A stretch of 64,000 nt of DNA from Prevotellaceae bacterium (GTDB taxonomy: Bacteria > Bacteroidota > Bacteroidia > Bacteroidales > UBA932). The notes beneath the pieces were generated by a model. That model saw only the letters and a list, made by a program, of their open reading frames with translations, did no database searches and was not told the origin of the DNA. Shown in pieces: positions 31,398 through 55,900 of the stretch. Position numbers and translations under genes: made by a program. The stretch covers positions 1 to 64,000 of the forward strand of contig JAISBU010000008.1 in assembly GCA_031266015.1 (NCBI GenBank), in the 5' to 3' direction. Numbering within the stretch: position 1 is the stretch's first letter; each line of letters starts with the position of its first letter.

Positions 31398-32201
31398 TTA
31401 GGCTCTGGCTTCGGGAGCCGCGTCAAACTTTACCATTATGCTACTTTGGTCTTTACTTAACCGGTATAGCTTGCGGGCATTTCCACGGCAACATGCCACC
31501 TCCAGCAAATTTTGCCCGTTGAAGAATGCAACGGGACTACCATCGGGAACATCAGTGTACGTGCTGTATAGCCGAGGTACTTTATACGCCATGCTGTTGA
31601 TGTAGATCTTACCGTTGCGTCCTTTTGCCGCCTCGTCGAACAATGGCTTGGTGATGTTGGTGATGGTGTTTCCGTAGCTGTCAAAATGTAGTATCTGCCC
31701 AACTATGCTATTGGGTTGTATGGTGGGTATTTTAGCCAGTAATTTTTTTGGCTGCAGGGGGAGGCCAAGCGCACCGATTTCATTCTTTTGGCAGATGTGC
31801 TGTACAATACGGGCAATGGCTGCATTATTTGGCGGCGTACTTTGCACGCTGATAACCGCATCAAAAGAAGGGGCAAGCAAGCTGAGGTAGCCGTTATTTA
31901 CCCAAATGAAAAAATGCCCGTTAACCTTTGCCGCTACCAATGGCTGCTCCTCCGTGACGTTGGCTTCTACACCTACGAAGTGAACGCTTCCTATTGGAAA
32001 ACTTTGGTATACAGCGCTTACGGTGAATGCTGCCGTTTGAGGATCATACGCCGCAACATAGTGGGTAATGTCCACAATCTTAACGTCCGGACATTGTCCC
32101 AGTATGCAACCCTTTAGCGAGGCCACGTAGTGATCGCTGGTTCCCCAATCGGTGGTAAGGGTTAGAATTGGCATAAATTCGGTATTGGCAACGGTTTTCA
32201 T
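31398..32201 (-). CDS. SAM hydroxide adenosyltransferase (SAM hydrolase, DUF62)
   Basis: A 267-residue protein of the fluorinase-like DUF62 family. It begins with the signature ILTLTTDWGTSDHYVASLKG, followed by VKIVDITHYVAAYDPQTAAF and FVGVEANV. The C-terminal beta-barrel domain includes GQILHFDSYGNTITNIT, VPRLYSTYTDVPDGSPVAFFNGQNLLEVAC. The family converts S-adenosylmethionine and water to adenosine and methionine; the Asp-Arg-His set of the family is not fully traceable by eye. Length is normal. It is a single gene, divergent from htrA. Confidence 0.9.
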   Translation of the reverse strand: MKTVANTEFMPILTLTTDWGTSDHYVASLKGCILGQCPDVKIVDITHYVAAYDPQTAAFTVSAVYQSFPIGSVHFVGVEANVTEEQPLVAAKVNGHFFIWVNNGYLSLLAPSFDAVISVQSTPPNNAAIARIVQHICQKNEIGALGLPLQPKKLLAKIPTIQPNSIVGQILHFDSYGNTITNITKPLFDEAAKGRNGKIYINSMAYKVPRLYSTYTDVPDGSPVAFFNGQNLLEVACCRGNARKLYRLSKDQSSIMVKFDAAPEARA

Positions 32202-32287
32202 ACAAAATTACTTCAAACTTAGCTTGATATCAGCTAAGAAACCTCAATTATCTGACAAAAAAACAGGTGTAAGGTTAAGACATATTA

Positions 32288-32303
32288 AGGCACGATTGTT
32301 GCA
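32288..32303 (+). promoter_or_regulatory. Sigma-54-type promoter upstream of htrA
   Basis: AGGCACGATTGTTGCA fits the RpoN consensus TGGCACG-N4-TTGCW with only the first base different; GG at 32289-32290 and GC at 32301-32302 are separated by exactly 10 bases. The predicted start is about 75 bp before the htrA ATG. The site is almost identical to the one at 52828-52843. Confidence 0.5.
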
Positions 32304-32388
32304 GCATGTAGTTGTACGTTAGACATTTGTAACGGATATGAAACAATTTGTAAAACTTTACGTATAATCAAAACCGGAGGATATAGTT

Positions 32389-33840
32389 ATGAGGTTAAAG
32401 AAAAGCAATATTGGCGCTGTAGCTGTAGCTGCCATAGTTGGTGGCGCTGCTGCGTTGGCGGTAACGTTATTTATTCAGAAAGAAAAGGATGTTGTTGTTA
32501 TTGGCGGGCAAAGTAATGTGCCGGTACACTACACAAATTCAGGAGAGCAAGGTGGTGCGGTAGATTTGACATTCGCAGCGGAGCAAAGCGTTCATGCGGT
32601 GGTTCACGTGAAAGTCAGCTACTCCAGGTATGTGCAAAATGCACCGGAGAGCTTTTATGATTTCTTTTTTGGTACGCCGCAATATCGTCAAGAGCGCACA
32701 CCAAGCATGGGAGCCGGATCCGGTGTAATTATTTCGCAGGATGGCTACATTGTAACCAACAATCATGTGATAGACAGGGCTGAGGATATACAAGTTACGC
32801 TTAATGATAAGCGTACGCTGTTGGCCAAAGTGGTGGGAACCGATCCTGGAACGGATATTGCCGTACTTAAGGTAGCGGAAAAAGATTTACCCTTTATCAA
32901 CTTCGGTAGCTCAGGCAATTTACGTTTAGGAGAGTGGGTGCTGGCAGTAGGCAATCCGCTAAATCTTACCTCTACAGTAACGGCAGGTATTGTGAGCGCT
33001 AAAGCCCGAAACATAAATCTGCTATCGGAGAACTTTAAGATAGAGTCGTTTATACAGACCGATGCTGCTGTAAATCCGGGTAATAGCGGTGGAGCATTGG
33101 TAAATATTCGCGGAGAGTTGGTCGGTATTAATACCGCAATTGCTTCTACAACAGGTTCTTTTACCGGATACTCGTTTGCTGTACCATCCGTAATTGTGCA
33201 AAAGGTTGCGGCAGATATTATAGAGCATGGAGTTGTGCAGCGCGCTGTGTTGGGCGTTTCGCTTATGGAGCTGACTTCAGAGGTGGCTAAGGAGCTTGAT
33301 ATTAAAGATGTGGCGGGCGTATTTGTTGCAGATGCAATTGAAGGCGGAGCCGCAAAGAAGGCGGGCATTATCAGGGGTGATGTGATTATTGCGGTTAATG
33401 ATGTAAGGGTAAATAGCGTTGCTGAATTGCAGGAGCAGATCAGCAGATTCAGACCGAATGATCAAATTACGCTAATGGTTAATAAAGATAATAAAACCCG
33501 TTATGTAAACGTTGTTCTAAGAAATAAAGACGGCGGTACGGATGTTGTAAAGAAGATCGTTATAAATTCCGGAAAGCTACTGGGTGCAGAATTACAGCCG
33601 ATGAGCGACCAGCTGAAAAAAGCGCTGCGTATTCACGGTGGCATGCAGGTCCGCAAGTTGAGCCAAGGCAAGCTGCAACAGCAAGGAGTGAAGGAGGGAT
33701 ATATTATTCTGCGTGTGAATCGAGCTCTGATAAATAGCGTAGAGGATATAGAAAAGGCCATTGGAAATAAGAGCAATGAAGCAATTTTTGTGGAAGGTAT
33801 TTATCCGAATGGTATGAGAGCGTACTACGCTTTTGAGTAA
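32389..33840 (+). CDS. htrA: Periplasmic serine protease/chaperone HtrA (DegP/DegQ)
   Basis: A 483-residue trypsin-fold protease. An N-terminal membrane or signal helix (residues 9-29, GAVAVAAIVGGAAALAVTLF) leads into the protease domain with His126 (TNNHVID), Asp156 (GTDIAVLK) and Ser233 (NPGNSGGALVN). Two PDZ domains follow, at about residues 270-365 (VLGVSLMELTSEVAK... GGAAKKAGIIRGDVI) and 390-483 (LGAELQPMS... GVKEGYIILRVNRALI). It degrades or refolds misfolded envelope proteins. A GGAGG sequence lies 11 bases before the ATG and a sigma-54-like promoter upstream. rpoD follows 30 bp downstream on the same strand. Confidence 0.96.
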   Translation: MRLKKSNIGAVAVAAIVGGAAALAVTLFIQKEKDVVVIGGQSNVPVHYTNSGEQGGAVDLTFAAEQSVHAVVHVKVSYSRYVQNAPESFYDFFFGTPQYRQERTPSMGAGSGVIISQDGYIVTNNHVIDRAEDIQVTLNDKRTLLAKVVGTDPGTDIAVLKVAEKDLPFINFGSSGNLRLGEWVLAVGNPLNLTSTVTAGIVSAKARNINLLSENFKIESFIQTDAAVNPGNSGGALVNIRGELVGINTAIASTTGSFTGYSFAVPSVIVQKVAADIIEHGVVQRAVLGVSLMELTSEVAKELDIKDVAGVFVADAIEGGAAKKAGIIRGDVIIAVNDVRVNSVAELQEQISRFRPNDQITLMVNKDNKTRYVNVVLRNKDGGTDVVKKIVINSGKLLGAELQPMSDQLKKALRIHGGMQVRKLSQGKLQQQGVKEGYIILRVNRALINSVEDIEKAIGNKSNEAIFVEGIYPNGMRAYYAFE

Positions 33841-33870
33841 ATTCTGAGAAAATAAACCCAAACGTTTATA

Positions 33871-34731
33871 ATGAGACAGCTTAAAATTACAAAGTCGATT
33901 ACTAATCGCGAGAGCGCCTCGTTGGATAAGTATTTGCAGGAGATAGGTCGGGAGGAGCTTATCACGGTGGAGGAAGAGGTAGAGCTGGCGCAGCGTATCA
34001 AAAAAGGCGACCAAAAAGCTTTGGAGAAGCTAACTCGTGCTAACCTTCGCTTTGTGGTGTCGGTGGCCAAGCAATATCAAAACCAAGGCCTCAGCTTACC
34101 GGACTTGATTAACGAAGGTAACCTTGGTCTTATAAAGGCAGCAGAGAAGTTTGATGAAACTCGTGGCTTCAAGTTTATCTCCTATGCGGTATGGTGGATT
34201 CGTCAATCTATTCTTCAGGCATTGGCAGAACAGTCACGTATTGTGCGCTTGCCGTTGAATCAGGTTGGATCACTTAATAAGATAAATAAGGCGCTTGCCA
34301 AATTTGAGCAGGAGAACGAACGTACGCCATCTGCGGTAGAGCTGGCTGCTATTTTGGATATTCCGAAGGAAAAAGTTGCCGATACCCTTAAGGTTTCCGG
34401 TCGCCATGTATCTGTTGACGCTCCTTTTGTTGATGGTGAAGATAATAGCCTGTTGGATGTATTGGTAAACAATGACTCCCCCAGCGCAGATAGAGGCTTG
34501 ATTAACGAATCGCTTTCAAAGGAAATTGACCGTGCGCTGTCGACCCTTACCGAACGTGAGCGTGATATTGTGAAATACGTGTTTGGCATTGGAACTCAGG
34601 AAATGACCCTTGAGGAAATTGGTGAGAAATTCGGCCTTACTCGTGAGCGTGTTCGTCAGATTAAAGAGAAGGCAATCCGTCGCTTGCGCCACAACTCACG
34701 TAGCAAGCTGTTGAAATCTTATTTGGGATAA
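33871..34731 (+). CDS. rpoD: Primary sigma factor RpoD (SigA), short Bacteroidota form
   Basis: A 286-residue sigma-70 lacking the large N-terminal region 1.1, as is normal in Bacteroidota. Region 1.2 is [31 protein letters not shown]; region 2 contains [61 protein letters not shown]; region 3 spans [17 protein letters not shown] to about residue 210; region 4 has [16 protein letters not shown] and the helix-turn-helix [22 protein letters not shown]. It recognises the TTTG/TAnnTTTG promoters seen in this window. A strong terminator follows. Confidence 0.97.
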
Positions 34732-40568: not shown

Positions 40569-41150
40569 TTATTTTTTATCACCTGAATTGCCTAATACCA
40601 GCTTTATGAGCTGCTCTTTGGCACGAAACAGCTGAGTTTTTACTGTGCCAATGGGCATGTTCAACTTCTCCGCAATTTCTTCATAGGCAAACTCATTCAT
40701 GTATCGCATTTCTACCATAGTGCGGTACGGAAGCTTTAGCTTATCAAGCACTGCTTTTGCCAACGCAATATTTTGCTCGGCAATCATACTTTCTTCAGGA
40801 TTCGGGGTAGTATTTTGCGCGTTGAACTCGTCATTTTCCACCATCTTATCGATAGATACGAGGTTGTTTTTACGCTTACGCATAAAATCTATGCAGCAGT
40901 TATTCGCAATGGTATACAACCATGTGCTGAAAACCGCGAAATCGCTATTGTAGGTGTGGATATTGGCAAATGCTTTGGTAAAAGTTAGCTGCGCCAGATC
41001 TTCGGCATCAGCATTATTACCCAAGCGTTTTTTTAGCTGTTTAAAAACTCCGGCATGGTGGCGCTGCATAAGGGCTCTAAAGGCCTTTTGATCGCCCTTT
41101 TTCGCCTGCTCAATCCACAGCAATTCACCTTTTGGAAATTGCGCTGCCAT
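40569..41150 (-). CDS. ECF RNA polymerase sigma factor (RpoE-like)
   Basis: A 193-residue ECF sigma factor. Region 2 contains MQRHHAGVFKQLKKRLGNNADAEDLAQLTFTKAFANI, then FAVFSTWLYTIANNCCIDFMRKRKNN. Region 4 has LPYRTMVEMRYMNEFAYEEIAEKLNMPIGTVKTQLFRAKEQLIKL with the helix-turn-helix. No anti-sigma gene is adjacent, so its control is not visible. It overlaps the upstream glycosyltransferase by one base and is followed by rsmG after 5 bp, so three genes form one unit. Similar stand-alone ECF factors occur throughout Bacteroidota. Confidence 0.93.
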   Translation of the reverse strand: MAAQFPKGELLWIEQAKKGDQKAFRALMQRHHAGVFKQLKKRLGNNADAEDLAQLTFTKAFANIHTYNSDFAVFSTWLYTIANNCCIDFMRKRKNNLVSIDKMVENDEFNAQNTTPNPEESMIAEQNIALAKAVLDKLKLPYRTMVEMRYMNEFAYEEIAEKLNMPIGTVKTQLFRAKEQLIKLVLGNSGDKK

Positions 41151-52827: not shown

Positions 52828-52843
52828 TGGCACGATTTTTGCA
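52828..52843 (+). promoter_or_regulatory. Sigma-54-type promoter before the large T9SS gene
   Basis: TGGCACG-ATTT-TTGCA is a perfect match to the RpoN consensus TGGCACG-N4-TTGCW, with GG and GC exactly 10 bases apart. Predicted transcription would start about 110 bp before the ATG at 52962. Nearly identical to 32288-32303. Confidence 0.6.
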
Positions 52844-52885
52844 CACACACACACGAGTGGCGTAGTTTCTGATTTTGATGTAAAG

Positions 52886-52917
52886 AATTCCGTATGCGCG
52901 GCCGCGCATACGGAATT
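52886..52917. promoter_or_regulatory. Perfect 32-nt palindrome in the leader of the T9SS gene
   Basis: AATTCCGTATGCGCGG is followed at once by its exact reverse complement CCGCGCATACGGAATT. It lies between the sigma-54-like site and the start codon, so it may be a dimeric regulator site or an RNA hairpin in the leader. Confidence 0.5.
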
Positions 52918-52961
52918 TTGCGTATACATACAGGCCAATAATTCAACAAAAAAATAAACCT

Positions 52962-55900
52962 ATGAAAACGAAAAGAATTTTTTCATTGCTGGCGCTTGCC
53001 GCGCTTATGCTATGGGGAGCGCACGTAAAGGCTGCGGGAACTACACCTTATGCAGACGAATTCCCTGTTACGTTTGTAGCTTCTGAAACCAATATTAGTG
53101 CTGCGGAGTGGGTAACCTACACTGCGAACAGTTATTCAAGTAGAACAGATTGCAGCACGCCTCAAGGTAACTATCCTAACCTAAGTGGGACTGGGCGTAA
53201 GGTAGATTTTTACCTTAGCAATTGCGGTGACGCTATATTTACCTTACGTGGTAATGGCTCTCGCGAAATGGCTTTTTATGTGAATGACAACAAGGTCGAA
53301 CAAAAGGTGATTACAACAAACGGTTGTGAGGATGTCGTTATAAGTGTTAATAGTACAGGAAGTGTTAAGGTGTCTGTGTCTGGTGTAGACGGAAGCGTTT
53401 ATCTTCCTTCAGTGACGTTTACCTCAGGGGTCTCCGCTTCTCCCACCATTACCGCTACTCCTGAAGCCATAGCTATTACCACTCCTGCCAACGCGGTGGT
53501 GGAGGAGACCCAAAAAACGGTAACCGTTTCGGGCGTAGCGCTCACGGGAAACCTTTCGCTGGCTATTCAAGGCGAGGGCGATGCTATTTTTAGCCTACCC
53601 TCCGCAAGCGAAACGCTTACCGCAGTGGAAGGTGCAGTGGCGGCTACGGCTGTTGTGCTGGAGTTTGGCGATTATTCAGCGGCGGCAGGACAAACCCTGT
53701 ATGATACGCTGGTAATTTCCGGTGGCGACGCCGACGAGGTGAAAGTTCCTTTGGAGCTTACGGTTACCGCAGTTGATGAAAGCAAGCCGGTGGTCACCGG
53801 CTACTTCCCTGTAGATGAGGACACTAACGTATTCGTCTACACTCCGCTGTACGTAGTATTTGATAAGAATATTACCGTAAACGATACTGATGCGGTAGTC
53901 ATCGATAACGGGAATGAAATTACCAGCGTAGCGGCAAGCAACGACACCCTGTTTATTACGGCCTTGCTGGTAAAGAACACCACCTATACCATTACCCTGG
54001 GGGCAGGCGCCGTGCAGGATTTGGCAACAAACAAGTCTGAGGAATCCTCCTGGTCCTTCACCACCGACGGCGCAGCGCCCACGGTGGTAGGCAAGGAGCC
54101 GGAGGGCAATACCGCTCCCATTAAGCCGATTAAGGTTACGTTCAGCGAGCCTGTAGAGGTAGTCGGGGATCTCATTACGGTAAACGGCGGCATTGTTGGC
54201 GCTACCCTTAGCGGCGACCGCATTACCCTTACGCTAACGGATACCGTCGTTGGGCCGGAGCATACCTACGCGGTAGTAATTCCAAAGGAGGCCATTACTG
54301 ACATTTCCGGTAACGAGCTGGCCGAGAATATTAAGTGGACCTTTACCGCCCTGGACGACAGCCCGGTATTCCCCTATAAGCCTACTCTGGACGCCAGCTT
54401 TGTTATCCCCTCATGGATGACGTTGACGAGCGCTACCGGAAGAACCAGCGACGGGTGCCAAACTACTACCGGTTACGCTTTGCGTACTGCTAATGGTTTT
54501 GCAGAGTTCCGCCTGCCTCAATGCGGCTACTTTAGGGTAGACGTTACCGCCAACGGCGGCAGAACATTCAAAATGTTCGTAGATGGAGTAGAGAAGATTC
54601 CATCGACAGCCATAGAGAAGACCACTCCCTGCGGTGGAGTTGGTTACATTAACTACAAGGTAAACTCGTTTACGCCTGTAGTTATCCGCATTGAGGATAT
54701 GGGATCTAGTTTTAGCTTGGTTAACCTTGAAATTACCGCTCCTGAGGTGGACAGGCCTGCCATTTTTGCTTCGCCTGAAGCCATAGACGTTACCGTGGCG
54801 GCCAACGCAACGGTAGCAGAGGCCGACAGATCAATAATCGTGGTAGGGGCAACGCTTACCAGCGATCCTGTTACGTCGGTTATTCAAGTGGGCGGAGCAG
54901 CAGGCATTTTTGCAGTTCCGGTGCTTAAAGCAAGCCTGACGCCCAATTTGAACGGAGCCATTCGCGATACCCTTGTGCTGGAGCTTGGCGATTATTCAGC
55001 GGTGGCAGGAACCACCCTGCGCGATACGCTGGTAATTTCCGGTGGCGGCGCCGATACCATCATAAAGATACCTTTGGTGCTTACAGTTACCGGAGCGGAT
55101 ATAACCGCACCGGTTGCTCTTGCATTTTTCCCTGTAAATGAGGCGGTTAACGTGCCTGTCAACACCCCTCTGTACGTGGTGTTTAGCGAGCCTGTTACCG
55201 TAGATCCGGCTAAGGTAACCATAGACAACGGCGTTACCGTAAGCGGCGTTACCGTAAAGGAGGATACGCTGTTTATCACTGCCGCCCTGGTAAAGGACGT
55301 TACCTATACGGTAGCCCTTGCTGAGGGTGCGGTAAAGGATGCGGCGGAGAACGAGTCGGTGGCAAGTTCTTGGTCATTTACCACAGACAACGCAGCTCCC
55401 GTGCTGAGCGGCAGCGCCCCTGCCGACAATGCAGCCGGTGCAGCCATTAACGTTAAGCCCTCGTTTACCTTCAACGAAAAGGTAACCGTGCTTACCGCAA
55501 CCGTAGCCGACGCCATTAACGACAGCATAGACGTAACGCTGGCCGTAAGCGCAAGCGGTACGGTGGTAACCGTAACCCCCGCGCATAACTTTGAGTACCT
55601 TACGGAGTACGCGCTTACCATTCCTGCCGGCAGCATTGCCGATATTTCGGGCAATGAGTACGCTACGGACTTGGCGCTGCACTTTACCACCAAAAAGCAG
55701 GTAGAGGGTCTGTTCTACACCGACTTTCTTACCGCGCCGGACGCAGTTGGCGCGCTCGTGTTCAATGCAAGCAACGAGTATGCAATTGGCGCCGGTCCGG
55801 TAGTTATAGGCAATATGACCCTTGGCGGACACAGCAGCGCAAAGCTTCAAGGTAGCGCTCTCGAAGCTACGCCTGACGAACCGGGTATGGACGGAGCTAC

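Follow-up and report, generated by a model that had tools for sequence, protein, structure and literature searches.

The 187-bp region (32202-32388) that separates a divergent SAM hydroxide adenosyltransferase gene from htrA raises the question of what transcribes this protease gene and the primary sigma factor gene behind it, and specifically whether a sigma-54-type sequence 86 bp 5' of the htrA start is a genuine promoter element (Table 1). The window (the whole stretch of 64,000 nt analyzed here, C55:1-64000) belongs to a genome of 2.50 Mb in 71 contigs that is 95% complete. Its nearest named HtrA relatives are found in Bacteroidota MAGs, with top identities for Bacteroidia bacterium MS495-6 (62%) and Prevotellaceae bacterium TD116_bin53 (63%). 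Among the 99 sampled genomes of the family, HtrA was detected in 87, with 25 out of 25 genera represented.

Table 1. Features of the htrA-rpoD locus (positions within the window) and the basis of each assignment.
Feature	Position	Strand	Basis
SAM hydroxide adenosyltransferase gene, divergent, left border of promoter region	31398..32201	-	gene and domain reading
Sigma-54-type -24/-12 element AGGCACG-ATTG-TTGCA, predicted distal promoter, start predicted at ~32314	32288..32303	+	sequence, genome rank, family score
ECF-sigma-type element TGAAAC-N16-CGTATAAT, predicted proximal promoter, start predicted at ~32375, a few bases downstream	32339..32368	+	motif unique in window; relatives
htrA, trypsin-like protease with PDZ domains, 483 aa	32389..33840	+	gene and domain reading
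htrA-rpoD gap, 30 bp, without TAnnTTTG	33841..33870	+	motif search
rpoD-type primary sigma factor gene, 286 aa, regions 1.2, 2, 3 and 4	33871..34731	+	gene and domain reading

A preliminary description of this DNA had reported a sigma-54 match at 15 of 16 positions. The sequence agrees with that description (AGGCACGATTGTTGCA), with GG at 32289-32290 and GC at 32301-32302, 10 bases apart, corresponding to -25/-24 and -13/-12. The count of 15 holds if the four N positions are included, while the informative positions alone give 11 out of 12. The reported leader of about 75 bp is also correct, as a start 12 nt past the C of -12 leaves 75 nt to the htrA start. This leader folds no better than its shuffles (z 1.33).

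Sites with up to three mismatches show no excess in the window (101 observed versus 111.1 expected); weak matches are therefore uninformative and counting them was discarded as evidence. With at most one mismatch, the window contains three sites (16805 on the minus strand, 32288 and 52828 on the plus strand) versus 0.92 expected under a first-order model, whereas for a single 150-bp stretch read on one strand the expectation is 0.001. The whole genome contains 11 exact NGGCACGNNNNTTGCW sites (NGGCACG-N4-TTGCW), including the one at 32288, versus 4.43 expected. Allowing one mismatch yields 90 sites, versus 50 for the reversed pattern and 36 expected. Each of the 11 exact sites has A as its last base, though the pattern allowed A or T; eight are intergenic according to our reading, two are located within genes and one within overlapping ORFs. 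The preliminary description had raised the questions whether the site would rank at the top of a genome scan and whether many random sites would score similarly. It stands among the best matches of the genome, and similar scores are infrequent at a stringency of one mismatch, judged by the genome and the first-order expectation. Taken from the window alone, the match is near chance; it is the genome evidence that lends it credibility. That the match is a functionless product of chance would fit the number of such sites to be expected (~0.9 per 64-kb window, 36 per genome). We consider this very improbable, as the site lies within 187 intergenic bp in the right direction, where ~0.001 is expected per 150 bp, and as the htrA genes of relatives carry the same element.

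The genome encodes the machinery that an RpoN reading calls for, as the preliminary description had proposed to verify. Its rpoN is full-length, with activator-interacting, core-binding and DNA-binding domains, and two proteins have a strong sigma-54 activation domain, one of 409 aa without a receiver domain and the other a response regulator of 445 aa. The canonical loop of sigma-54 activators is GAFTGA, in place of which both proteins carry GSFTSA. At one locus (L002, C46:17693-21193), a sigma-54 activator without a receiver domain adjoins a gene that we take to be LptE-like, with groESL about 15 kb away on the same contig. Across the family, rpoN was detected in 93 of the 99 genomes, and five of the six genomes without a detected rpoN are at most 80% complete. 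Genome G005 (99% complete) has sigma-54-type elements at htrA and groES, and no rpoN was detected there, a second rpoN domain search being negative as well. Because two strong activators are present there, we take a missing contig to be the more probable cause; the activators also weaken G005 as a refutation of the RpoN reading.

Conservation before htrA was analyzed in 84 family regions (87 matches gave 85 regions, with G025 and G059 left out, and L118 was too short). Most family sites escaped a scan weighted on the GC at -12, and a softer matrix was used afterwards. A score of at least 9 is reached in 63 of the 84 regions, versus 6.4 expected from first-order shuffles and three on the opposite strand, and the site at 32288 has the top score of the entire set. 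The common family form is TTTGGCATATAWTTTGA, usually located 20-65 bp 5' of the htrA start codon. It deviates from the sigma-54 consensus in that the C of -12 is often, even usually, A or T. A matrix-free search for TGGYAY-Nk-TTTG found k=4 in 55 out of 84 regions belonging to 17 genera, no case of k=1-3 or k=5-8, and one, four and four cases of k=9, 10 and 11, respectively. Column information is high only within a 16-bp block. The fixed spacing with GG and G before orthologous genes is as expected of a -24/-12 element; a -35/-10 promoter would give a second block. We also considered CATATAAT of the family as the mere -10 of an ECF promoter; this was rejected because column information gave no conserved -35 block. 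In distant named Bacteroidota (80 loci, two of them too short) the signal is weak, with 15 of 78 htrA regions scoring at least 9 versus four on the opposite strand. By eye, a GACARAATTGCAA-like block is seen just 5' of the sigma-54 element in the nearest relatives.

The same element occurs before other protein-quality genes. GroES was found in 90 out of 99 family genomes, and TGGYAY-N4-TTTG precedes groES in 40 of the 50 regions examined (the 30 best matches and 20 picked to add genera and G005). The genome of the window contains TGGCACGATAATTGAT 112 bp upstream of groES and TGGCATACTTTTTGCA 150 bp upstream of lon. The element shared by htrA and groES points to a sigma-54 proteostasis set, in which htrA would join groESL and lon. 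In genome G076, a start at 1527 is predicted from the element at L234:1501, and a FopS-like Rfam match begins at 1526, thus 1 nt off, although this match (RF04319) is under the gathering score (39.3 versus 56 bits, E 0.004). We regard the coincidence as a further sign that elements of such shape start transcripts. Neither the window nor 12 loci of its genome gave a match when scanned against Rfam. FopS-like small RNAs behind a sigma-54-type element are located at 1501-1620 of both L234 and L228 (G076 and G010, respectively); for FopS in B. thetaiotaomicron, the retrieved text of PMC11697453 gives sigma-ABfr promoters.

These family data could also mean that TGGYAY-N4-TTTG is read by a factor other than RpoN, such as an unknown sigma factor or a heat-shock regulator, which would account for the frequent A or T in place of the C of -12 and for the elements of G005, where rpoN is not detected. 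We find this quite improbable in view of the near-universal rpoN of the family, the rigid GG-N10-G spacing, and the full GGCACG-N4-TTGCA carried by the window genome's own sites. In addition, the retrieved text of PMC12316311 describes B. thetaiotaomicron groES as sigma-54 dependent, and the FopS-like match of G076 lies next to the start predicted by sigma-54 geometry.

A second element lies between the site at 32288 and htrA. The sequence TGAAACAATTTGTAAAACTTTACGTATAAT (proximal element in Table 1) contains a perfect TGAAAC-N16-CGTATAA (32339-32367), of which the window has no second exact copy. SigW-type ECF promoters of B. subtilis have the form TGAAAC-N16-CGTA, and we take the element found here to match this consensus. 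With a spacer of 15-17, TGAAAC-CGTATAA is present in 16 out of 320 loci: the window's htrA region (two overlapping loci), all six htrA regions of the nearest genus (g9), the two closest named relatives and all six loci of another genus, g22 (L054, L056, L057, L059, L063, L065). In each of the g22 loci, TGAAAC-N16-CGTATAA is located in the htrA-rpoD gap directly before rpoD, overlapping a terminator-like hairpin. The window encodes one ECF sigma factor (40569-41150, minus strand) of 193 aa, with no evidence tying this gene to the proximal element. A viral-contig search with this protein gave two distant matches. SigP of Porphyromonas gingivalis has the same length of 193 aa (retrieved text of PMC4800418). 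In the literature that our search returned in excerpt, we found neither such an ECF-type motif for the phylum Bacteroidota nor any work on RpoN or ECF factors acting at htrA in this phylum, and the excerpts of PMC12596196 and PMC4800418 contain no matching motif.

The two elements are not equally distributed. Among the nearest relatives, the proximal one is present in nine out of nine htrA regions and the sigma-54 element in seven; L045 (G087) and L125 keep the former and lack the latter. It is conceivable, then, that only the ECF-type promoter works and that the sigma-54 element survives as a remnant of the ancestral htrA promoter, decaying after an ECF takeover, which would also suit the lengthened stretch between -12 and the start codon in the nearest genus (81-126 bp at four of the five sites scored). 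This seems unlikely to us, since the window's site is undecayed, equals the other exact sites of its genome and outscores all other family regions.

The reading that we favor, with moderate confidence, is that the site at 32288 is a genuine sigma-54 -24/-12 element and forms the distal half of a two-promoter region of an htrA-rpoD operon. RpoN polymerase would sit at this element as a closed complex, to be opened by one of the genome's two enhancer-binding ATPases, whereas the proximal ECF-type promoter would supply an envelope-stress input. Transcripts of both promoters would probably cross the 30-bp gap into rpoD. The control of htrA by RpoN, put forward in the preliminary description, is likely on the sequence evidence, being a well-supported prediction from rpoN, the activators, the genome rank and the family spacing at htrA and groES. 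It has to be narrowed, however, as RpoN would be at most one of two inputs because TGAAAC-N16-CGTATAA stands between site and gene in all nine nearest relatives.

The preliminary description had extended RpoN control, with more reserve, to rpoD, which indeed begins 30 bp behind htrA. In all 29 family loci where both genes are readable, rpoD follows htrA. Housekeeping promoters of Bacteroides, recognized by sigma-ABfr, have TAnnTTTG at -7 and TTTG at -33 (retrieved text of PMC7366714). TAnnTTTG is found neither in the 187 bp before htrA, nor in the gap, nor in the final 600 bp of htrA; one copy is located far upstream within htrA at 32561. Other genera have it within the htrA-rpoD gap at 12 of 23 loci, for the most part 25-31 bp ahead of the start, versus none of six loci of the own and nearest genus. 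As the gaps are short (27-86 bp) and shuffled gaps of such size also rarely contain TAnnTTTG, its absence is less telling. With the motif missing from both the gap and the final 600 bp of htrA, rpoD mRNA is most simply explained by read-through from the promoters of htrA, the alternative being an unrecognized internal promoter. The extension to rpoD is thus plausible by read-through across a 30-bp gap, to the extent that the missing motif can be trusted.

A more far-reaching idea, which we put forward only tentatively, is that rpoD of this lineage has no housekeeping promoter of its own and is transcribed only from the RpoN and ECF promoters before htrA; the level of the main sigma factor would thereby be set by envelope and protein-folding stress. 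The uneven presence of TAnnTTTG in the gaps (0/6 versus 12/23) and the ECF-type element directly before rpoD in the g22 loci are consistent with such a promoter loss. If rpoD truly depends on two stress promoters, the primary sigma factor would be commanded by alternative ones, an unusual arrangement that is easily testable in a cultivated relative.

Apart from the htrA locus, the strongest sigma-54-type site of the window is TGGCACGATTTTTGCA at 52828 (plus strand), which passes directly into a (CA)6 array (52842-52853); the window has no other array of at least six CA units. When up to two mismatches are allowed, GGCACG-N4-TTGCACACACAC occurs at 27 sites in eight of the 99 genomes (seven in the own genome, 10 in G080 and four in G092), versus one for the reversed pattern. 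TTTGGCACGATTTTTGCA sites fused to (CA)n microsatellites are found in L010-L020 and L294-L320, with a CG repeat instead in L014, and the arrays reach up to 48 units in g20 genomes. Several CA-fused sites precede SusC-like or secreted-protein genes; others precede unnamed genes or are located at contig ends. No CA array of at least six units is present in 223 loci unselected for the motif (834 kb). Such sites may possibly represent RpoN-type promoters whose transcription start carries a microsatellite of variable length, as could be anticipated for phase-variable surface genes. The literature returned in excerpt by our search contained no case of a CA-microsatellite-fused RpoN promoter. Between the site at 52828 and a 1383-aa Ig-domain protein at 52962 there is a strong 15-bp hairpin (52885-52918, plus strand, z -3.1) followed by TTTT-like sequence, which may be an attenuator or the end of a short RNA.

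Compared to the known promoter systems, the proximal element resembles SigW-type ECF promoters of B. subtilis in both hexamer cores and in their spacing, but it belongs to another phylum. The usual promoter of the phylum, that of sigma-ABfr, occurs in about half of the gaps of other genera but neither before htrA nor in the gap of this locus. The distal element shares with sigma-54 promoters (consensus TGGCAC-N5-TTGC; TGGCACN5-7TTGCT in the retrieved text of PMC12316311) the GG and GC 10 bases apart, the complete GGCACG and TTGCA, and a genome with rpoN and activators. It differs in its first base (A instead of T); elsewhere in the family, A or T often replaces the C of -12. That 2025 survey names GroES, GrpE, HSP90, COG0542 and COG0466 as chaperone and protease genes of Bacteroidota among the predicted sigma-54 targets. 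The groESL and lon sites found here agree with this set; htrA suits its functional group but is not mentioned in the main text of PMC12316311, nor are degP and COG0265. With groES and grpE assigned to sigma-54 in the retrieved text of PMC12316311, the family element with its fixed spacing would extend this assignment to an envelope protease, and its family-wide presence at htrA and groES offers a compact test set.
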